A stretch of DNA of 42,005 nucleotides, taken from assembly GCF_030536915.1 (NCBI RefSeq), contig NZ_JAUNPC010000002.1, positions 50,781 to 92,785 of the forward strand, written 5' to 3'. Source of the stretch: Paracoccus sp. (in: a-proteobacteria). Its GTDB lineage: Bacteria > Pseudomonadota > Alphaproteobacteria > Rhodobacterales > Rhodobacteraceae. Under the pieces are notes generated by a model that saw nothing but the letters and a program-made list of their open reading frames with translations, did not search any database and was not told the origin of the DNA. Position 1 is the first letter of the stretch, and every line of letters begins with the position of its first letter. Below, piece after piece: positions 9,176-24,779 of this stretch. A program made the position numbers and the translations under genes.

Positions 9176-11458
9176 TCACCCCTCGATCCGGCCGAAGTCG
9201 GCGATCAGGCGGCCGGCCTCGCGGATGCGGTTGAGCAGATTCAGGCGGTTGCGGCGGAGGATGGGGTTGTCGGTGTTGACCTGCACCGCCTCGAAGAAGG
9301 CGTCGATGGGGGCGCGAAGGGCGGCGATGGCCGACATGGCGGCGGGGAAGTCCTCGGCCTGCATGGCGGCGGCGATCTTCGGCTTGGCGGCGTCCAGCGC
9401 GGCGAAGAGCGCGCGTTCCTCGTCGGTTTCCGCGAATTTCGGGTCCGCGCCGAAGGAGTATTCGACGCCGTCCTTGTCCTCGGCCTGCGCGAGGATGTTG
9501 GCCGCGCGCTTGAGCCCCTGCAGCAGGTTCGGGCCGTCCTCGGTCGCCAGCATCGCGTTCAGTGCGGTGGCGCGGCGGACGACAAGCGTGAGGTCGTCCG
9601 ACCCCGGCATCGCCAGCACCGCGTCGATCACGTCATGGCGGATGCCTTGGTCCCGCAGGTGGACCTTGAGGCGGTCGTGGAGGAAAGCGAGGAGGCTTGC
9701 CGGCGCTTTGCGTCTCGACTCAAGATGAGCATCAAACTGCAGTTCTACATCTTCAATGCCTTTTTTGACTAGAACAAGCTCGTCCGACGTCGTTTTTTCT
9801 GCTCCAGAAATGAAAAGGCCGTTTCGCTCTCGGTCTTTCTGGTTCTCGTATCCTTTAGATTGCGCATCGAGAAAAACGCTCTGACGGAACTCTAACTCTG
9901 AAATAATTTCTTTTAGCAGCGTCAGATAGTGTCGGTGACGATCAACATGCGCTGCGAATATTTCAGTGAGATTGATCCGAAATCCTCCCTCTACTACGAT
10001 TCGAATAAGACCTAACGTTGAACGCCGCAGTGCAAACGGATCTTTAGATCCAGTTGGTAGTTCGTCAACCGCCCATAGCCCGATAAGCAAATCGGTCTTA
10101 TCCGCCAGCGCCACGGCGACCGAGACCGGCGCGCTGGGCACCTCGTCGGACGGTCCCAGCGGCGAATAGTGGTCGCGGGCGGCGTCTGCGACCGCCTCCG
10201 GCAGCCCGGCGGCCTGGGCGTAATAGCGGCCCATCGTGCCCTGCAACTCGGGGAACTCGCCGACCATCGCCGAGCGGAGGTCCAGCTTGGCGACCTTTGC
10301 CGCCTTCTCGGCCTGATCGGGGTCGGCGCCCACGGCGGGGGCGATCTCGCGGGCCAGCGCGGCGATGCGCTCCACCCGGTCGGCCTGCGAGCCGAGCTTG
10401 GCATGGAAGGTTACGGCCTTCAGCCCCTCGGCCCAGGCCTGCATCCCCGCGCGGGCCTCGCGCAGGTCGTTCTCCCAGAAGAAGGCAGCGTCCGACAGCC
10501 GCGCGGCCAGCACGCGCTGGTTGCCGGCAAGGATCGTCGCGCCGTCGTCGGAGGTCTCGATGTTGGCGACGGTGACATAGCCCTCGATCCGGCCCGTCTT
10601 CGGGTTGCGGGCGGACAGGAACTTCTGGTGCTCCTTCATCGAGGTCTGCAGCACCTCGGGCGACAGGTCGAGGAAACGGTCCTCGATCACGCCCATCAGC
10701 GGCACGGGCCATTCGACCAGCCCGGCGAGTTCCGTCATCAGGCCCTCGTCGGGCACGATCTCCCAACCCCGCGCGAAGGAAAGGTTCGCGGCCTCCTGCC
10801 GGATCGCGGCCTCGCGCTCGGCGGGATCGAGCATGACCTTGGCGCGGCGCAGCTTGGCGGCGTAGTCGTCGAAGCCCGTTACCCGGAAGGCGTCGGGGGC
10901 CATGAAGCGGTGGCCGCGCGTTTTGTCCCCCGCTTCGATGCTGTCCACGATCAGCGGCACGACCTGCGCGCCAGCCTCGTCCGAGAGAAGCGCGATGATG
11001 GAATGCAGCGGGCGGACCCAGCGCAGCGAGCCGCTTCCCCAGCGCATCGACTTGGGCCAGGGGAAGTCGCGGATGGTGGCCTCAAGAACCTCGGCCACGA
11101 TCTCGGCAGCCTTGCGGCCGGGTTTTTCCACCACGGCGAAGAAGACCTCGCCCTTCTTCTCGGCCCGGCGTTCCAGCTGGTCCAGCGTCAGGCCGGTCGA
11201 TCGCAGGAAGCCTTCGATAGCCTTCTCGGGCGCGTCCGTGCGCGGCCCCTTGCGCTCCTCGCGCACCGGCTTGGATTCGGCCGTCAGCCCCTCGACCGCC
11301 AGCGTGAGGCGGCGCGGCGTGGAAAAGGCGCCGGCCGAGGCATAGGTCAGCCCGGCCTCGACCAGCCCGTCGGTGATCAGGCGCTTGAGGTCCTCGCCTG
11401 CGCGGGGCTGCATCCGGGCGGGGATTTCCTCGGAGAACAGCTCGATCAGCAGGTCCAT
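9176..11458 (-). CDS. glyS: Glycyl-tRNA synthetase beta subunit
   Basis: This is the beta subunit of the heterotetrameric bacterial glycyl-tRNA synthetase, needed for tRNA-Gly recognition and charging. The protein has 760 residues and begins [17 protein letters not shown], the conserved start of GlyS. Other family landmarks are GPRTDAPEKAIEGFLRSTG, FPWPKSMRWG, the ALADKTDLLIGLW region with PTGSKDPFALRR, and a C-terminal anticodon-binding-like part. It is longer than the roughly 690 residues usual for the family. The extra length lies at about residues 500-560 in a Lys/Glu-rich segment whose DNA is markedly AT-rich. The start overlaps the upstream stop by one base (TGATG). The frame upstream of 11458 belongs to the overlapping neighbour. 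Confidence 0.95.
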   Translation of the reverse strand: MDLLIELFSEEIPARMQPRAGEDLKRLITDGLVEAGLTYASAGAFSTPRRLTLAVEGLTAESKPVREERKGPRTDAPEKAIEGFLRSTGLTLDQLERRAEKKGEVFFAVVEKPGRKAAEIVAEVLEATIRDFPWPKSMRWGSGSLRWVRPLHSIIALLSDEAGAQVVPLIVDSIEAGDKTRGHRFMAPDAFRVTGFDDYAAKLRRAKVMLDPAEREAAIRQEAANLSFARGWEIVPDEGLMTELAGLVEWPVPLMGVIEDRFLDLSPEVLQTSMKEHQKFLSARNPKTGRIEGYVTVANIETSDDGATILAGNQRVLAARLSDAAFFWENDLREARAGMQAWAEGLKAVTFHAKLGSQADRVERIAALAREIAPAVGADPDQAEKAAKVAKLDLRSAMVGEFPELQGTMGRYYAQAAGLPEAVADAARDHYSPLGPSDEVPSAPVSVAVALADKTDLLIGLWAVDELPTGSKDPFALRRSTLGLIRIVVEGGFRINLTEIFAAHVDRHRHYLTLLKEIISELEFRQSVFLDAQSKGYENQKDRERNGLFISGAEKTTSDELVLVKKGIEDVELQFDAHLESRRKAPASLLAFLHDRLKVHLRDQGIRHDVIDAVLAMPGSDDLTLVVRRATALNAMLATEDGPNLLQGLKRAANILAQAEDKDGVEYSFGADPKFAETDEERALFAALDAAKPKIAAAMQAEDFPAAMSAIAALRAPIDAFFEAVQVNTDNPILRRNRLNLLNRIREAGRLIADFGRIEG

Positions 11459-15896: not shown

Positions 15897-15970
15897 GCGG
15901 GTGTAGCTCAATGGTAGAGCAGCAGCCTTCCAAGCTGAATACGTGGGTTCGATTCCCATCACCCGCTCCA
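15897..15970 (+). tRNA. tRNA-Gly (anticodon TCC)
   Basis: The acceptor stem GCGGGTG pairs with CACCCGC. The D-arm AGCTCAATGGTAGAGC, anticodon loop CTTCCAA (anticodon TCC) and T-arm GGTTCGATTCC are all present, followed by discriminator T and an encoded CCA. The total is 74 bases. The sequence agrees with other alphaproteobacterial tRNA-Gly(TCC). The first base pair below the anticodon stem (G-A) looks mismatched. The DNA downstream is decayed, consistent with a tRNA used as an integration site, but I did not find a duplicated 3' end. Confidence 0.95.
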
Positions 15971-17029: not shown

Positions 17030-18721
17030 ATGCACCGGGAGCGGTATCCACCACCGGCTTCCGGGGCGGAAGAGGCCGACGACACCGAGCTGGCCCAGGC
17101 GATCGTCCGCTTCTGGATCGGAGGCGCCGCGGCAGGCTACATCCTCATCGCCATGATCCTCGATCTGTTGCCGACGGGCGCTGCGGCGGTTGTGGCCGTC
17201 TGGATGGGGATGTTCTTCCTCGTCTCGACATGGCTCTTCGCAGCCATCCGCCGCCATCCCGGCGTCCGGCACGGGCGGCGGGCGCTGGCGATGCTCAACG
17301 ACTACGGCAGCACGGCCTTTGTCCTGTCCATGGGGGACAGGATCCTGCTGCCGATCTTCATGGTGCTGATCTGGATCACGCTCGGATACGGGATGCGCTA
17401 TGGTCCGCGCTACCTGCTGGCGGGCACCGTCAGCGCCCTTCTTGCCATCGCCACCGTCACGATGTTCTCCGACTTCTGGCGCGCCCAGCCTTTCATGGTG
17501 GCGACCTTCATCCTGGCGGCGGTGCTGGTGCCGGCCTACGCCCATGTCCTGCTGACCCGGACGCGCCGCGCCCATGAGGAAGCGCAGGCCGCCAACCGCG
17601 CGATGACCCGCTTTCTGGCCCAGGCAAGCCATGACCTGCGCCAGCCCGTCCATGCGATCGGTCTTTTCACCGACTGCCTGCGCGCGGCGCCGCTGGGGCC
17701 GGAAGAGCGGGTGATGGTGGACCGCATCGACCGCTCGCTGCAGAGCGTGTCGCGCCTGTTCCGTTCATTGCTGGATGTCGCGACGCTTGACAGCGGGCGC
17801 GTCGTGGTCCGCCAAGAGGTGGTCGACCTGGGCGAGCTTCTTCGCGAGATCGCGGCCCAGAACTCCGAGGCCGTCCGCTGGGCGGAAGTGGACCTGCGCG
17901 TCGTGCCCACAAGGCAGCAGGTGCTGACAGACCCCGGGCTGCTTGCGACCGTGGTGCAGAACCTTGTCTCGAATGCGCTGAAATATGCGCCTGCCGGCTC
18001 GGTGCTGGTCGGCTGCCGCCGGCGCAACGGTGGGATTGCCATCGAGGTGCATGACCGTGGCCGCGGCATTGCCCCCGAACACCTGCCCCATGTGTTTGAC
18101 GAATTCTATCGCGGCAGGGACCCGGATGACGAAATCGAGGGGGTGGGCCTGGGGCTTTCCATCGTCAAGCGCATGGCCGCGCTGATGGACCTGAAGGTGA
18201 CGATCTCATCGGTCCCGGGCCGCGGAACGAGTGCAGCCCTGGACGGGCTTCGGCTGGCGCCGCCGCAACAGCAGCGCGCACGGCTGCCCCGGCGCAGGAC
18301 GACGCCGCTGGACGGCCTTCGCATCCTGCTGATCGAGGACGACCGCGAGGTGCGGGACGCAACCGCCATGCTTCTGGCCAGTTGGGGATGCGAAACCCGG
18401 GCGGTCGCCGCCGCGCCCGCAGGGCCGGTCGCCTGCGATCTGATCGTGGCCGATCTCGACTTGGGCGGGCTCAAGGATGGCCGCGCCGCGGTGGAAAGCC
18501 TGCGCGCGGCAAGCGGCCGGCATATCCCTGCCGTTCTCATAACCGGGCATGAGGCGCTGGACCTTCACGACCCGGTCGACCGGGACACCCCGGTGCTGGC
18601 AAAGCCGGTGCGGCCGGCGGAACTGCGTGCAGCCATTGCGGCACAATGGCTCGGCAGGGCAGAGCGGCCCGTCACAGGCCCTCCCCGGCCGCAAGGGCCG
18701 CTGCCCCTGCGCGCGAACTGA
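17030..18721 (+). CDS. Membrane-embedded hybrid sensor histidine kinase
   Basis: This 563-residue kinase begins with five or six hydrophobic segments between about residues 25 and 175, with very short loops and no large extracellular domain. It therefore probably senses a membrane-associated or lipophilic signal. The dimerisation/phosphorylation box is [19 protein letters not shown] with His201. The ATPase domain has the N-box [22 protein letters not shown] and the G-box [17 protein letters not shown]-terminal receiver domain (about 425-545) has the acidic pair IEDDRE, acceptor Asp475 and Lys in VLAKPV. It has no HPt domain. AAGGA lies ten bases before the chosen ATG. Its last 50 bases overlap the 3' end of the response regulator on the other strand. 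It probably signals to that regulator and controls the peptide cassette downstream; this is inferred from position. Confidence 0.9.
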
Positions 18722-19292
18722 CGCCCAGCGCCTGCAACAGCGCCGAGACGTGAAGGCTGACCGTCGCGGGCGAAATGCAAAGATCGCGCGCGATCTCCTT
18801 GTTGGTCAGCCCCTTGGCGACCAGCCGCAGGACCTCGCGCTGGCGCGGCGTCAGCGCGGCGAGCGGGGGTTCGGGACTGCCGGACAGGCCTGCCTCGCGC
18901 TGCAGCATGACAACGGTTTCGCCACCCCAGACCGCCGCGATGGCGGCCCCGATTTCCTGCGCAGGCACGTCCTTTCCGATGAACCCGTCCGCCCCGGCCG
19001 CCATGACCTGATCGACCGTCCGTTCGTCGTCCAGCATCGAGATGATGACCACCGACGCCAGCTTGAACTCGGCCCGCAGCTCGTGGATGGACCGGCGCGG
19101 CGCGAAGCCCGGGAAGACGAGGTCAAGGGCGAACAGCGCCGGCGGCGGACCCGCGCGGGCCTGTTCCAGCAACTCGGCCATGGTGCCGGCTTCGCGCACC
19201 TCGGCATCGGGAAACCGCCTCTGGATGATGCGGCGGATGCCCTCGCGGAAAAGGGGGTGGTCGTCCGCAACGATGATCCTGCGCGCGTGCAT
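18672..19292 (-). CDS. LuxR/NarL-family response regulator
   Basis: This 206-residue protein is a two-component transcription regulator. The receiver domain begins [16 protein letters not shown], with acidic residues Asp9 and Asp10 and acceptor Asp57 in [11 protein letters not shown]. The [10 protein letters not shown] stretch carries the conserved Lys. The output domain is LuxR-type ([44 protein letters not shown]), at about residues 140-185. The ATG at 19292 is chosen because the receiver domain begins directly after it; a GTG at 19319 is possible. The gene diverges from the HlyD gene and shares a 214-base promoter region containing a perfect inverted repeat. Its tail overlaps the kinase gene. 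It is the obvious candidate to bind that repeat. Confidence 0.93.
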
Positions 19293-19373
19293 CTTCCCCC
19301 CCCCGGACCGGAATGGCACCTGTCAGGCAGGGGAAGTCTGGGGGATCGGCGCCGGGCGTCAACCCGCATCGGC

Positions 19374-19391
19374 ATAGTGAGTCTTCACTAT
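19374..19391. promoter_or_regulatory. Palindrome, candidate operator of the peptide cassette
   Basis: ATAGTGA and TCACTAT form perfect 7-base arms around a GTCT spacer, in an otherwise GC-rich region. The site lies in the divergent region between the response regulator and the HlyD gene, about 116 bases before the HlyD start. Dimeric LuxR/NarL-type regulators bind inverted heptamers of this size. Binding by the adjacent regulator is inferred, not shown. Confidence 0.55.
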
Positions 19392-19506
19392 TACCGGGTC
19401 CGGGCACCTGCGGCATCCTGTCCGCCTGAGGGCAGGAGGGGGATGGTGAAGCCGATGCTTTCCTTCACGCGGATCTGCGCGCCGGCCGGGCGGAGGGCGT
19501 AAGCCG

Positions 19507-20793
19507 ATGGCGAAACCGCTGTTCCGGCCCGAGTCGTTCGAGGCGCGCCAGTCGGCCTGGCTTGGCCGGCCGACGGTGCTTCGGTCCTTGCCCGTGGCGG
19601 CTTTCGCGCTGTTCTCTGTCGCATTTGTCGGGGGCCTGCTGGCGCTTCTGGTTTTCGGCGATTACGGGCGGCGGGTGCGCGTCACCGGCGTGGTGATGCC
19701 CGCGGATGGCCTTGCCCGCCTTCAGGCCCCGGCGGCGGGGCGCATCATCGAGCTGCGGGTGCGCGAAGGCGACGAGGTGCGGCGCGACGACGTATTATAC
19801 GTCGTCGGCATCGACAGCAGCACCCAGCTTGGCGACACGCAGGGCAGGGTCGCGGCGCTTCTGCGCGAACGGCGGGATGAGCTTGCCGCGACCCTTGCCC
19901 GCCAGGCGGACGTGGACCGGCGCGACAAGTCGCGGCTGGCCGACGAGCGCGCCGAGGCGCAGCGTGAACAGGCCGCGATCAGCGCCGAGATCGCCGAGGT
20001 GAAGGCCTATGCCACCGATCTTGCCGCGATCGCCGAGCGGCAGGAACAGATGCTCGGCCGCGGGCTGGTCCGCAGCAGCGACGTGGAATCCCGGCTGCAG
20101 TCCCTCAATGCCGAGCGGGCGCGCCTGGCCGGGCTGCGGCGCGAGCGGCTGCAGATCGAGGCGCGCATCGCCGCGCTTGAACACGATCTCGGCGGCTTCG
20201 ACCTTGCCTCGGAAGAACGGCTGGCCGCGATCCGCCGCGAGATGCTCGGGATCGAGCAGGAAGTTTCCGAAAGCGAGGCCCGGCGCGAACTGTTCGTACG
20301 CGCCCCGCGGGACGGCCTTGTCACCGGCATCCTTGCCCAACCCGGCCAGACCGTCGCGGCGGCGGACCCGCTTCTGACCCTGGTTCCCACGGATCAGCCG
20401 CTCGTCGCCCAGCTTCTGGCCCCCAGCGACGCCATCGGCTTCCTGCGGGAAGGCGCGCCGGTGCTGCTGCGCTATGAAGCCTTCCCGTACCAGAAGTTCG
20501 GGCAGCATCCGGGGCGCGTCACGGTGATCTCGCGCGCGGCGCTGCGGCCGGATGATCTGGCGCAGGTTGCGCCAGGCCCGCCAGGCAGCGATGAGCCCGG
20601 CGCAGTCTACCGCATCACGGTCCAGCCCGAGACGCAGGCCGTCCATGCCTATGGCCGGGACGAGCCGCTTCAGGCCGGCATGCAGGTCGAGGCGCATGTG
20701 CTGGTGGACACCCGGCCGATCTACCAGTGGATCTTCGAGCCGGTCTACGGGCTGCGCGGCACCCTTGCCGCCGCGTCGGGGGGCGGGGCATGA
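19507..20793 (+). CDS. HlyD-family adaptor of a peptide exporter
   Basis: This is a 428-residue periplasmic adaptor of an ABC exporter. It has one transmembrane helix at about residues 30-51 (AAFALFSVAFVGGLLALLVFG) and a biotinyl-lipoyl half motif (APAAGRIIELRVREGDEVRRDDVLYVV). A long coiled coil runs from about 115 to 245 (Arg/Glu/Ala-rich), followed by the second half motif (RAPRDGLVTGILAQPGQTVAAADPLLTLVP). The C-terminal barrel ends with GMQVEAHVLVDTRPIYQWIFEPVYGLRG, a finish common in adaptors paired with C39-peptidase ABC transporters of bacteriocin type. GGAGGG lies nine bases before the ATG. Its stop overlaps the start of the transporter (ATGA). It opens the exporter-peptide-maturase gene row. 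Confidence 0.92.
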   Translation: MAKPLFRPESFEARQSAWLGRPTVLRSLPVAAFALFSVAFVGGLLALLVFGDYGRRVRVTGVVMPADGLARLQAPAAGRIIELRVREGDEVRRDDVLYVVGIDSSTQLGDTQGRVAALLRERRDELAATLARQADVDRRDKSRLADERAEAQREQAAISAEIAEVKAYATDLAAIAERQEQMLGRGLVRSSDVESRLQSLNAERARLAGLRRERLQIEARIAALEHDLGGFDLASEERLAAIRREMLGIEQEVSESEARRELFVRAPRDGLVTGILAQPGQTVAAADPLLTLVPTDQPLVAQLLAPSDAIGFLREGAPVLLRYEAFPYQKFGQHPGRVTVISRAALRPDDLAQVAPGPPGSDEPGAVYRITVQPETQAVHAYGRDEPLQAGMQVEAHVLVDTRPIYQWIFEPVYGLRGTLAAASGGGA

Positions 20794-22919
20794 GCGCCGA
20801 TCTGGTCAGGCGCATTTCGGGCGGCTTTCCCTCGCGGACGCCCGCCATCCTGCAGGTGGAGGCGGCGGAATGCGGGGCCGCCTGCCTCGCCATGATCGCC
20901 GGGCATCATCGCCATGTCATCGACCTGGCGGCCTTGCGCCAAAGGCATCCCGCATCGATCAAGGGCGCGACGATGCGCGACCTGGTGGGCTTGGGCGCCA
21001 GGCTCGATCTCGCCACCCGCGCCGTCCGGCTGGAGCTTGAGGACCTTTCGCGCCTGCGGCTGCCGGCCGTGCTGCACTGGGGGCACAACCATTTCGTCGT
21101 GCTGGTGCGGGTCCAGCGGCGCCATGTCATCATCCACGATCCGGCCATCGGGCGCAGGCGCCTGCCCATGGCCGAGGTGTCGCGGCAATTCACCGGGGTC
21201 GCGCTGGAAGCATGGCCCACCGAAAGCTTCCGCCCCCGCGTCGAGCGCGCCCGCATCCGCGTCCTCGACCTGCTGCGCCGCACCTCCGGCCTTGGCGGCG
21301 CGGCGGCGCAGATCCTCGCCATCTCGCTTGCGCTCGAGGTGGCGGTGATCGCCCTGCCGATCGGCTTTGCCCTGATCCTCGACGAGGTGGTGGTCGCGGC
21401 AGATGTCGACCTGCTCACCATCATCGCGCTGGCGCTCGGCCTGCTTCTCGCGCTGCAGGTCGCGGCGGGATTTGCGCGCGCCTGGGCGACCATGCTTCTT
21501 GGCACCAGCCTGACGCTGCAGTGGAAGGTCAGCCTCTTCGACCAGATGATGCGCCTGCCGCTGTCCTTCTTCACCAAGCGCCACATCGGCGACGTCGTCT
21601 CGCGCTTCGGCTCCATCGACGCGATGCAGCGCACGCTGACCACGCGGGCGATCCAGTCGATCATCGACGGCATCATGTCGGTCACGCTGGTGGTGATGAT
21701 GTGGCTTTATGGCGGCTGGCTCATCTGGATCGCGCTTGCCAGCCTTGCCGCCTATATCGCCCTGCGCCTGGCCTCATACCGCGCCTATCGGGCGATGTCC
21801 GAGGAAGCGATCCTGCACGCGGCGCAGGAAACCACCCATTTCATGGAATCCGTGCGCGGCATCGCCAGCGTCAAGGCGATGAACATCGAGGGGCGCCGCC
21901 GGGGCACCTGGATCAACCACCTGATCGACCGGGTGAATGCCGAGCTGCGGGTCCAGAAGCTGGACGCGGCCTTCGCGGCGGCGGGCACGGGCCTCTTCGG
22001 CTTCGACCGCATCCTTGTCATGGCGCTGGGCGCACGGGCGATCCTAGCCGGGGATCTCACGGTGGGCACCCTCGTGGCCTTCCTCGCCTACAAGGACCAG
22101 TTCGCCACGCGGGTGAACGCGCTTGTCGATACGGCGCTGCAGTTCCTGATGATGTCGCTGCACGGCGAACGCATCGCCGACATCGCGCTGGCCGAAACCG
22201 AGGAACCCGATCCGCCGGCAGCATTGCCGCCGCGGGTCGGCTGGAAGGCGGCTTCGCTGGAACTGCGCGATGTCTCTTTCCGCTACGCGCCGGGCGATCC
22301 CGAGGTGCTGTCGGAGTTTTCCCTTCATGTCCGCGCCGGGGAATGCGTGGGCATCGCCGGCCCGTCGGGGGTGGGCAAGTCCACCCTTCTGGCGATCGTC
22401 GCCGGCCTCGCGCGTCCCACCGGGGGGCAGGTGCTGATCGACGGCATCCCGCTTGGGCGGACGGGGCTTGCGGCCTACCGCGACCGGATCGGCTGCGTGC
22501 TGCAGGACGACCGGCTGTTCGCCGGTTCCATCGCCGACAACATCGCCGCCTTCGATCCCGAGGCTGGCCGGGACGCGGTCGTCGCCGCGGCGCGGATGGC
22601 CGCGATCCATGACGAGATCGAGGCCTTCCCCATGGGCTACGAGACGCTGGTGGGCGACATGGGAAGCGCGCTTTCCGGCGGTCAGCGCCAGCGGCTGTTT
22701 CTTGCCAGGGCGCTCTGCCGGCGTCCCGGCATCCTGATCCTCGACGAGGCCACGAGCCACCTCGACGAGGAAAACGAGCGCGCGATCAACGCCGCCGTCC
22801 GTCGGCTCGACATCACCCGCATCGTCGTGGCGCACCGCCCCTCGACCCTCGCCGCCACCGACCGGGTGGTGAGCCTGGGCGAGGTCCGGGGCGAGGCGCT
22901 CGCGACGGCTGCGGAATAA
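20790..22919 (+). CDS. C39-peptidase ABC exporter (leader-cleaving peptide transporter)
   Basis: This 709-residue protein combines the three parts of a peptidase-containing ABC transporter. The N-terminal C39 domain has the oxyanion Gln22, catalytic Cys28 in EAAECGAAC, His101 in HNHFVVL and Asp117 in HDPA, so it should be an active double-glycine protease. The membrane domain (about 165-440) has six predicted helices. The ATPase domain carries Walker A GPSGVGKST, signature LSGGQRQR, Walker B ILILDEAT and the H-loop VAHRPST. Enzymes of this class cut the leader after GG and export the core peptide. The two small genes directly downstream encode peptides with a GG leader, which identifies the likely substrates. 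The ATG at 20790 is coupled to the upstream stop. Confidence 0.95.
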   Translation: MSADLVRRISGGFPSRTPAILQVEAAECGAACLAMIAGHHRHVIDLAALRQRHPASIKGATMRDLVGLGARLDLATRAVRLELEDLSRLRLPAVLHWGHNHFVVLVRVQRRHVIIHDPAIGRRRLPMAEVSRQFTGVALEAWPTESFRPRVERARIRVLDLLRRTSGLGGAAAQILAISLALEVAVIALPIGFALILDEVVVAADVDLLTIIALALGLLLALQVAAGFARAWATMLLGTSLTLQWKVSLFDQMMRLPLSFFTKRHIGDVVSRFGSIDAMQRTLTTRAIQSIIDGIMSVTLVVMMWLYGGWLIWIALASLAAYIALRLASYRAYRAMSEEAILHAAQETTHFMESVRGIASVKAMNIEGRRRGTWINHLIDRVNAELRVQKLDAAFAAAGTGLFGFDRILVMALGARAILAGDLTVGTLVAFLAYKDQFATRVNALVDTALQFLMMSLHGERIADIALAETEEPDPPAALPPRVGWKAASLELRDVSFRYAPGDPEVLSEFSLHVRAGECVGIAGPSGVGKSTLLAIVAGLARPTGGQVLIDGIPLGRTGLAAYRDRIGCVLQDDRLFAGSIADNIAAFDPEAGRDAVVAAARMAAIHDEIEAFPMGYETLVGDMGSALSGGQRQRLFLARALCRRPGILILDEATSHLDEENERAINAAVRRLDITRIVVAHRPSTLAATDRVVSLGEVRGEALATAAE

Positions 22920-22957
22920 CGGCCAGCCTGGCCACCAACCGGAAGGAGAAAACCGTC

Positions 22958-23125
22958 ATGAACTTCATCAAGCGCATCGCCCCGGACAGAAAGCAGGGCG
23001 AACTGACGCCGCTTCTCGAGGCCCATCTCGACAGCGTGTCGGGCGGGGCGAACCCCGGACCGGGCTGCGCCCATATCTCGACGGGCTGCAACGAAACCCA
23101 CGACAGCCGCACCCAGTGCAGGTAA
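22958..23125 (+). CDS. Precursor peptide 1 with double-glycine leader
   Basis: This small gene encodes 55 residues, preceded by a strong AAGGAGAA ribosome site. The leader (residues 1-30) contains LTPLLEAHLDSVSGG, the pattern cut by C39 peptidases after GG. The predicted core (31-55) begins ANPGPG, holds Cys37, Cys44 and Cys54, and includes HISTGCNETHDSRT. It follows the exporter by 38 bases and precedes a second, related peptide. The leader shares LTxLLxxHLxxxxGG with that peptide and the core shares HISTG-X4-HDSRT. No known bacteriocin was recognised. Expected modification by the radical SAM enzyme downstream is inferred from clustering. Confidence 0.85.
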   Translation: MNFIKRIAPDRKQGELTPLLEAHLDSVSGGANPGPGCAHISTGCNETHDSRTQCR

Positions 23126-23147
23126 GCCGCCGGCAGGAGAGACGGAC

Positions 23148-23357
23148 ATGACCACGCGTTCCACCTATGGCCGCCTGATCGGCCGCATCACCGGCTCGGG
23201 CGAGCCGGCCGCTCCGCTTACGCAACTTCTCGACGAGCATCTTTCCGAGATCGCGGGCGGGCGTTGCGGCTGCGGGCACAGTTCAAGCGGCAACCACATC
23301 TCGACCGGCTCGGGGACCAACCACGATTCCCGCACCGACCGCACCGTTCAGCGCTGA
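23148..23357 (+). CDS. Precursor peptide 2 with double-glycine leader
   Basis: This gene encodes 69 residues, with AGGAGAG before the ATG. The leader contains LTQLLDEHLSEIAGG, with predicted cleavage after Gly38. The core (39-69) is RCGCGHSSSGN followed by HISTGSGTNHDSRT and DRTVQR. It has two Cys (40 and 42) against three in peptide 1, and three His-x-Ser triads (HSS, HIS, HDS) against two. The 14-residue block HISTG-X4-HDSRT has the same length in both peptides, so it is probably the functional or modified part. The gene lies 22 bases after peptide 1 and 87 bases before the maturase gene. Confidence 0.87.
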   Translation: MTTRSTYGRLIGRITGSGEPAAPLTQLLDEHLSEIAGGRCGCGHSSSGNHISTGSGTNHDSRTDRTVQR

Positions 23358-23397
23358 GGCGCCGGGGAGGGTGCGGTTCATGCCGCGCCCTTCATCC

Positions 23398-23421
23398 CCT
23401 GCCGTCGCCTGTTGCGGCAGG
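23398..23421 (+). promoter_or_regulatory. Intercistronic hairpin between precursor and maturase genes
   Basis: CCTGCCG pairs with CGGCAGG around a 10-base loop, between the second precursor gene and the radical SAM gene. It has no T tail, so it is not a full terminator. A stem at this place could stabilise the precursor mRNA or lower read-through, so that peptides outnumber the enzyme. Confidence 0.4.
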
Positions 23422-23444
23422 CCTGCTCTCCGAAGGAGGAACCG

Positions 23445-24779
23445 ATGACCCAAGTCCGCCGGCAGCGGTCGATCGACATCGTCGCCAAGATCACCGAACG
23501 CTGCAACCTGGCCTGCACCTACTGCTACTTCTTCTTCGGCGGGGACGAGACATGGCTTCGCCACTCGGCCGTGATGAAGCCCGCGACGATCGAGGCGCTG
23601 GCCGGCTTCCTGGCCCGCGGCGCCCGCGAGCTGGAACTGGACGACATCTACCTTGGCCTGCACGGCGGAGAGCCGCTGCTGATGAAGAAGCCGGCCTTCG
23701 ATGCGATGTGCAGCCGCCTGAAAGCCGCGATGCCCGAGCGGACAAGGCTTTACCTCGGCGTGCAGACGAACGGCATGCTGATCGACGCGGAATGGATCGA
23801 TCTCTTCGAAAAGCACGAGGTCGGCATCGGCATCAGCCTTGACGGACCCGCGGCGGTCAACGACCGCGCCCGGATCGACAAGAAGGGCAGGGGCAGCCAT
23901 GCCCGGGTCCTGCAGGGCCTTCGCATCGCGCAGGAGGCCGCCCGTGCGGGCAGGATTGCGCAACCCGGCTGCCTTTGCGTCATCGACCCCGACCAGGACC
24001 CGGCCGAGGTCTATGACCACCTGATCGGGGAACTCGGCTTTGCCTCGGTCAGCTTTCTGCTGCCGCGCGAAGGGCATGACACGGGGATGCGGATCGACGC
24101 CGGGAAATGGCGCGGCTTCATGCGCCGACTCGTGGCGCATTGGACCGATCCGGCGACCCCCACCGTGCCGATGCGGATCCTGTCCGAGCCGCTGAAGGGG
24201 ATGATCTCGGACGAGGGCGCGGCATGGCGCGACATGCGGATCGCGAACCGCCACAACGTCATCACCGTGACAAGCGACGGCGAACTGGGACCGGACGACA
24301 ACCTGAAGGGCCAGGACCCGCGCTTTCAGGAAACCGGCATGAGCGTCTTCGACACCACCCTGGGCGAGTTCATCGAAAGCCCGCTCTGGCAGGGGATCGT
24401 CACGGGCATCGACCAGCTTCCCCAGCGCTGCCGCGGCTGCGACTGGCGGCGCGTCTGCGGCGGGGGCGACGTCTTCAACCGCTACAGCCGCGCGCATGGC
24501 TTCAGCCGCGAGAGCGTCTTCTGCGACGCGCTGGACGAGATGCACCTGGAACTCGCGCGCTATGCCGCAGGCCACGGAATCCTCGCGGACGAAATCGCGG
24601 AACGCCTTTCCCGGCCGCCCAGCTTCCGCGCGAGCAACCTGGCAGAAGCGCGCCATGACGCCCGAGATGTGTCGAATGAACGGAGGATGGGCCTGAACCG
24701 GACGGACGCCCCCGTCGCAGGTCACGTTGCCGAGGAAGAGAGCGCCTTGCTCTTGCGGCCTGCAGGATCGCCGACCTGA
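23445..24779 (+). CDS. Radical SAM/SPASM peptide maturase
   Basis: This 444-residue enzyme has the radical SAM motif CNLACTYCY (Cys20, Cys24, Cys27) binding the 4Fe-4S cluster that cleaves S-adenosylmethionine. YLGLHGGEPLLM and ISLDGPAAVND follow at the usual places. The C-terminal part has a short SPASM-type cluster site: CRGCDWRRVC (Cys329, 332, 338), GGGDVFNRYSRAHGF and Cys360 in SVFC. From memory, this last box resembles that of FxsB/XyeB/GrrM-type maturases, which join an aromatic ring to the beta-carbon of a residue two positions on. The chosen ATG has a perfect AAGGAGG. The gene closes the cassette. Its substrates are probably the two GG peptides upstream. No RRE/PqqD-like domain or second radical SAM gene was seen. 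Confidence 0.93.
   Translation: MTQVRRQRSIDIVAKITERCNLACTYCYFFFGGDETWLRHSAVMKPATIEALAGFLARGARELELDDIYLGLHGGEPLLMKKPAFDAMCSRLKAAMPERTRLYLGVQTNGMLIDAEWIDLFEKHEVGIGISLDGPAAVNDRARIDKKGRGSHARVLQGLRIAQEAARAGRIAQPGCLCVIDPDQDPAEVYDHLIGELGFASVSFLLPREGHDTGMRIDAGKWRGFMRRLVAHWTDPATPTVPMRILSEPLKGMISDEGAAWRDMRIANRHNVITVTSDGELGPDDNLKGQDPRFQETGMSVFDTTLGEFIESPLWQGIVTGIDQLPQRCRGCDWRRVCGGGDVFNRYSRAHGFSRESVFCDALDEMHLELARYAAGHGILADEIAERLSRPPSFRASNLAEARHDARDVSNERRMGLNRTDAPVAGHVAEEESALLLRPAGSPT

Follow-up and report, generated by a model that had tools for sequence, protein, structure and literature searches.

A 42,005-nucleotide stretch of Paracoccus sp. contig NZ_JAUNPC010000002.1 (the whole of which we call the window) holds, at positions 17030-24779, what looks like a complete gene cluster for a ribosomally synthesized and post-translationally modified peptide (RiPP), with genes for two peptides and five larger proteins, all in intact frames. 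Every histidine in the predicted cores of the two peptides is followed two residues later by a serine, and the radical SAM maturase encoded beside them is related to enzymes that form three-residue cyclophanes. Judged by its sequences, the cluster is akin to the Xye/FxsB/YhhB triceptide (three-residue cyclophane) systems. We propose that it is probably a pathway-specific, triceptide-type RiPP cluster that makes His(C2)-Ser(Cbeta) rings, with its own export and local regulation. An earlier note on this DNA had listed a kinase, a regulator, an HlyD protein, a C39 exporter, two peptides with double-glycine (GG) leaders, and a radical SAM maturase; all are open frames where it placed them, and Pfam and NCBIfam identified the kind of each larger protein. 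Its interpretation as a whole is partly supported.

To place the cluster among its relatives, we use a scan of genome contigs in which 80 loci were kept of 124 confirmed relatives (L numbers denote loci and G numbers genomes). Two relatives carry both peptides: L008, from Paracoccus aerius, and L095, from genome G378. Across the six cores of these three peptide pairs, 15 of 15 His residues have Ser at +2, and each His-x-Ser of the window is preserved in both relatives. Seven kinds of residue occur at +1 and five at +3, and Phe, Tyr, and Trp are absent from all six cores. When the window cores were shuffled, every His had Ser at +2 in 1549 of 500,000 trials for peptide 1 and 2004 of 500,000 for peptide 2, and for the L008 cores in 12168 and 852 of 500,000; these figures are descriptive because the motif was picked after being noticed. 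The dN/dS ratios of the two peptides were 0.28 and 0.40 against L095, and 0.55 and 0.30 against L008. The cores had earlier been called His-rich with a His-x-Ser motif. The motif is there, and they are better described as His-x-Ser cores with no Phe, Tyr, or Trp.

Neither peptide matched a family in the Pfam or NCBIfam libraries, so the earlier separation of these precursors from named families holds for the libraries searched. The leader of peptide 2 gave a sub-threshold match to TIGR03898 (12.4 bits versus a cut-off of 23.5). The XyeA precursor model (TIGR04495, cut-off 33 bits) found neither peptide up to E 1, while in the same library Xenorhabdus XyeA, as a positive control, scored 69.3 bits on its own model. 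Among six further precursors of the wider family that were scanned, five had no match and one had stray matches only (E 0.05-0.07). The earlier note would have been refuted by a match of the peptides to a named family or by homologous neighborhoods in which peptides and maturase are apart, and neither was found: in the two nearest relatives both peptides adjoin a maturase gene, which is intact in L008 and broken in L095.

The maturase scored best against the XyeB equivalog model (TIGR04496; 277.8 bits, cut-off 450), followed by the FxsB subfamily (TIGR04269; 232.6 bits, cut-off 370) and the YhhB equivalog (NF041707; 230.8 bits, cut-off 445). It is thus homologous to enzymes that form three-residue cyclophanes, with all of the best models below their cut-offs. 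Models for thioether-forming enzymes scored much lower (PapB, 80.0 of 340 bits; SCIFF maturase, 49.5 of 425). All 40 aligned relatives of the maturase match the XyeB, FxsB, and YhhB models at E 1e-20 or better, and 7 of the 40 match HxsB. Its nearest solved chain is the radical SAM domain of ChlB (9gm3/9gmc), with E 1.5e-31 for 9gm3 in a single-sequence search. A profile search of solved chains ranked ChlB (6.4e-75) ahead of an anaerobic sulfatase-maturating enzyme (2.1e-52) and of 5wgg (1.7e-26), which we take to be a thioether maturase. In comparing names below, we assume, with some help from the NCBIfam model names, that XncB is XyeB, OscB is GrrM, and MscB is FxsB.

To view the cores against the wider family, we compiled by eye a table of 44 precursors from 40 loci, the window included. 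Near-duplicates (e.g., L034, L047, L049, L058, and L059) and loci lacking a convincing candidate (e.g., L015, L016, L019, L020, L030, and L039) were left out, and further loci of the latter kind, L043-L045, L053, and L055, also lie outside it. Core starts were set by hand for L050 and for L017 and L023, both of which lack a GG. An aromatic-x-X3 motif recurs across the 44 precursors, and the six His-x-Ser cores are the only ones without Trp, Phe, or Tyr. These cores also carry an aromatic-x-X3 motif if His is taken as the aromatic donor, as in HaaB and YhhB. Some loci stood out in their own right. The His-rich candidate precursors of L017 and L023 (Proteobacteria bacterium SZAS-39), built mainly of His-x-Asn/Asp, adjoin related maturases and are a candidate for another mainly His-based system, by sequence. 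L018 and L141 have precursors with FDLS/FDLT repeats next to XyeB-like maturases; the Leu of Phe-Asp-Leu is not among the usual third residues. Of the class-level relatives L141-L143, the last two had no convincing precursor, and none of the three had a His-x-Ser.

From gene content, conservation, motif statistics, and family kinship, all of them observed, we infer the chemistry, cleavage, signal, and role as follows. The maturase would recognize a conserved leader (LTxLLxxHLxx, then V/I/M, S/A, and GG) and link every core His, through C2 of its imidazole, to Cbeta of the Ser at +2 by a C-C bond. Peptide 1 would thereby gain two three-residue cyclophanes (-4 Da) and peptide 2 three (-6 Da). 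The calculated monoisotopic core mass would fall from 2611.107 to 2607.076 in peptide 1 and from 3269.451 to 3263.404 in peptide 2. The C39 domain would cleave after the GG, and the ABC/HlyD pair would carry the products out. The kinase-regulator pair may act at a dyad before hlyD and turn the operon on, with the product itself a plausible signal for the kinase. Candidate roles for the product are bacteriocin, signal, or metal binder.

Both halves of the proposed ring have precedents, in different systems. In the sections of PMC11002830 used here, His serves as a donor through C2 to the Cbeta of Ala in HaaB and of Arg in YhhB (which also joins Tyr to Arg), and again to Ala Cbeta in ScaB, which stands outside the group formed by XncB, OscB, MscB, YxdB, HaaB, and YhhB. 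Ser Cbeta is the acceptor in MscB, there from Phe C4. The other pairs given are Trp to Arg/Asn and Phe to Asn for XncB, Trp to Asn/Asp and Phe to Asn for OscB, and Tyr to Asp for YxdB (PMC11002830). The earlier view of related cores as based on Phe, Tyr, and Trp was thus too narrow, since His-based HaaB and YhhB are known in the class. We found no report of a His-Ser ring pair in the portions of the literature searched, which did not take in the principal survey of these systems (Sugiyama et al. 2022). On sequence grounds, His-Ser is likely a new donor-acceptor pair within an established class of ring-locked peptides.

Several observations weigh against the proposed His-Ser rings. The maturase lies under every curated cut-off, so that its reaction is not implied by family membership. 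Models for the sulfatase maturase, DynA, DarW, AmcB, and GrrM likewise match every one of the 40 aligned relatives at E 1e-20, and PapB, a ranthipeptide model, matches 39 of them. Q, R, N, K, or D usually fills X3 in the tabulated relatives, and just 1 of the 38 other precursors (L025) has a His-x-Ser. The cores also contain Cys, three in peptide 1 and two ahead of the first core His in peptide 2, all retained in both relatives; thioether or disulfide bonds are therefore possible. Such fixed cysteines, together with the PapB matches, would suit a maturase that forms thioethers on Cys, as in sactipeptides or ranthipeptides, with His-x-Ser serving some other end such as metal binding. We consider this rather improbable, given that the thioether models score far under the cyclophane models, that 5wgg falls far below ChlB in the profile search, and that what never varies near a core His is the Ser at +2. 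An unlikely alternative, though one with a real chance, is that His or Ser is modified without a three-residue cyclophane, for example by a bond of other spacing, by ether formation at the Ser oxygen, or by conversion to a dehydro-amino acid. Radical SAM bonds do vary, the bicyclostreptin pathway providing bonds from Ser O to His Cbeta and between His and Gly (PMC11002830), and a maturase beneath all cut-offs leaves room for such chemistry. On the other side, the i/i+2 spacing of the motif is that of triceptides (PMC11002830), and the top three models, XyeB, FxsB, and YhhB, are all named as cyclophane-forming.

A different doubt is raised by G378, a close relative that holds both peptides beside a decayed cluster. 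In its locus L095 (G378:C1, 6446-10376), both precursor genes remain open, the front of the kinase runs into the middle of the C39 gene with no C39 front, the maturase frame is broken, and neither the regulator nor HlyD has a match. That the window cluster is itself decaying or non-functional is nevertheless very unlikely: every frame is intact, both peptides and all five larger genes are present at the P. aerius locus, and the peptide dN/dS ratios are below 1. Least credible of all, with almost nothing to recommend it beyond the common motif and a weak HxsB match, is a Haft-type His-Xaa-Ser (Hxs) system. To our knowledge, an Hxs gene set has two radical SAM enzymes plus HxsD and no C39 exporter; the window cluster does have a C39 exporter, and its maturase is not HxsB (TIGR03978; 54.5 bits, cut-off 370). 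Four matches to HxsC (TIGR03977) in the window's genome, which is 86% complete, were all under the cut-off. HxsD (TIGR03976) had no match in that genome, nor in any control genome. On the features that could be compared, the earlier exclusion of an Hxs system is borne out.

The earlier statement that the cluster matches no named RiPP class was too strong, with the maturase nearest to XyeB, FxsB, and YhhB. The Xye/Xnc systems (XyeA, XyeB/XncB) likewise combine a GG-leader precursor, a SPASM maturase, HlyD, and a C39 exporter in one cluster, and in Xenorhabdus the HlyD and C39 exporter genes lie alongside xyeA-xyeB. They differ in having cores based on Trp and Phe (WVN, FAR, and WDK in X. bovienii) and a maturase 36% identical to that of the window. 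The X. bovienii 13-kb stretch also has an extra hypothetical gene and, unlike the window, no annotated kinase or regulator. YhhA/YhhB and HaaA/HaaB share the His donor (PMC11002830) but have Arg or Ala as third residue and other neighboring genes. FxsB/MscB share the Ser acceptor (PMC11002830) but use Phe as donor, and the window maturase does not reach the FxsB cut-off. ChlB (PDB 9gm3, 9gmc), a multiple cyclophane synthase by a reference title in PMC12636437, is the best solved relative over the whole fold; it is described there as fused to an HExxH hydroxylase domain, whereas our Pfam/NCBIfam scan found none in the cluster proteins of the window. In Mucilaginibacter lappiensis, a His-Xaa-Ser peptide also adjoins radical SAM enzymes other than HxsB and HxsC, but that cluster has six precursors, two radical SAM enzymes, a dehydrogenase, and a lantibiotic-dehydratase-like gene, and the parts of PMC9062424 used here give no characterized product.

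Such clusters are sparsely distributed. The nearest maturase relative among the 80 of 124 loci is that of P. aerius (L008), at 79% identity; the others reach at most 43% over the best segment, except the broken frame of L057 (55%). Matches at E 1e-30 were found in 8 of 125 genomes of the genus. Two of 295 genomes spread over the family had a match, as did 4 of 385 spread over the class (E 1e-60), the window's own genome being included in each count. Three of the eight genus genomes carry His-x-Ser peptides (the window, G297 [P. aerius], and G378). Three more (G320, G370, and G334, from P. denitrificans, Paracoccus sp. MKU1, and P. laeviglucosivorans) carry FGR-FLR-HSK/HNK peptides in clusters whose kinase, regulator, HlyD, and C39 genes correspond to those of the window; their His motif varies in its middle residue and is constant in its third. 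In P. denitrificans the order is HlyD, C39, peptide, maturase, kinase, and regulator. The remaining two (G337 and G307) have a different, possibly unusual RiPP cluster. There, at L097 (G337:C33, 7004-13142) and L098 (G307:C1), a distant maturase relative adjoins a multinuclear iron enzyme of the MbnB/TglH/ChrH family, with a B12-binding radical SAM protein and a methyltransferase (domains assigned by Pfam in L097 and by eye in L098).

We found five intact clusters that contain all of kinase, regulator, HlyD, and C39: the window, L008, L041, L042, and L056. By best local matches, the four others are 46-57% identical to the window in the kinase, 50-63% in the regulator, 47-65% in HlyD, and 61-80% in the C39-ABC exporter. 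Among 64 loci, the regulator was seen outside the window only in these four and in L005, which repeats L041. When clusters of the two types in the genus are compared, these four proteins are 46-66% identical and the maturases only 32-35%. These identities suggested a swap of the maturase/precursor cassette, and a 60-row maturase tree (without L005, L095, L053, L057, and the broken L059) did place the maturases of the two types apart. We dropped the claim because an approximately unbiased (AU) test, on a tree with eight further rows left out, did not reject a single clade (p 0.737), and the likelihood was better with the two constrained together.

The dyad before hlyD points to local regulation. 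Its pattern, TAGYRMNTCYNYRCTA, has one match in the 3.16-Mb genome of the window, and the reversed control has none. The same pattern lies before hlyD in L008 (where the arms pair less well), L041, L042, and L056, and it had no match in 1,313,101 bases of other loci; the decayed L095 has no dyad. L041 and L042 have a second copy ahead of the peptide gene, where L056 has a one-base variant. With the dyad before hlyD in all five intact clusters found, the two-component system is, from this sequence pattern, probably pathway-specific. When the pattern was loosened, 14 of the 125 genomes of the genus had a match, all five that hold an intact cluster among them. Because the reversed-pattern control also matched in many genomes, a loose match says little by itself, and with 9 of the 14 genomes lacking an intact cluster we gave up the loosened dyad as a means of finding more clusters. 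One of these nine (G411) holds kinase, regulator, HlyD, and C39 at L134 (G411:C5, 4443-11329); in the other eight, the stretches around the match had no such set, and the matches look like chance. L134 combines its loosened dyad with a small GG-leader-like frame (11141-11329, plus strand) that is divergent to the kinase and has no Pfam match. It had no maturase match, and the set may carry other cargo or have lost its maturase. An attenuator hairpin between peptide 2 and the maturase was also considered and set aside as too weak (z -2.54 in the window, -1.55 and -0.76 in two relatives).

Table 1. Features of the cluster, by position in the window
Feature	Position	Strand	Details
Hybrid histidine kinase, membrane-anchored	17030..18721	+	N-terminal hydrophobic segments, HisKA, HATPase, receiver
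Response regulator, NarL/LuxR type	18672..19319	-	REC + GerE
Putative operator of the local response regulator	19375..19390		16-bp dyad TAGTGAGTCTTCACTA, between regulator and hlyD
Periplasmic adaptor, HlyD type	19507..20793	+	Pfam/NCBIfam
ABC exporter	20790..22919	+	N-terminal C39 peptidase (Gln22, Cys28, His101, Asp117)
Precursor peptide 1	22958..23125	+	55 aa; leader end SVSGG; core ANPGPGCAHISTGCNETHDSRTQCR, 2 His-x-Ser
Precursor peptide 2	23148..23357	+	69 aa; leader end EIAGG; core RCGCGHSSSGNHISTGSGTNHDSRTDRTVQR, 3 His-x-Ser
Radical SAM/SPASM peptide maturase	23445..24779	+	CNLACTYCY; Cys329, 332, 338, 360; XyeB/FxsB/YhhB-related

The individual genes (Table 1) required few corrections. 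The frame list behind the earlier note contained every part, but its longest exporter and maturase frames start too far upstream: the likeliest C39-ABC start is the ATG at 20790, which overlaps the HlyD stop, and that of the maturase is the ATG at 23445, preceded by AAGGAGGAACCG. The regulator, correctly recognized, had to be reassigned to the minus strand. HisKA and HATPase of the kinase score above their Pfam cut-offs, the receiver just misses (28.1 versus 30.2 bits), and the C terminus gives 275 bits against a cut-off of 400 for a NahK/ErcS-family model. The exporter (Peptidase_C39, E 2e-33) has the makings of a C39 exporter of GG peptides, with GG leaders in both peptides and the catalytic Cys, His, and Asp exactly where the earlier note had put them; Gln22 is present too. 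A tRNA-Gly (TCC) gene at 15897-15970, ~1 kb upstream of the kinase, is a possible insertion site. A genomic island defined by base composition was rejected, the GC content of the cluster being unremarkable.

A bolder version of the proposal, which we regard as a long shot, is that the products are His-only triceptides with five rings, spread over the two peptides, whose imidazole/Cys arrays hold a metal ion and are sensed as the signal by the cluster's own kinase. The His-Ser ring itself is directly testable, with two peptides, five sites, and a variable middle residue within a fixed outer pair. A natural substrate without competing Phe, Tyr, or Trp is a clean system in which to study the choice of imidazole carbon, and the dyad gives a handle on the timing of peptide production. 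If the proposal is true, His-Ser would join the reported residue pairs of radical SAM cyclophanes. We found no description of the chemistry of the His-Xaa-Ser peptides of Hxs systems in the literature searched; these peptides have the motif in common with the window cores but are accompanied by other enzymes, and the same His-Ser ring would then be a ready hypothesis for them.

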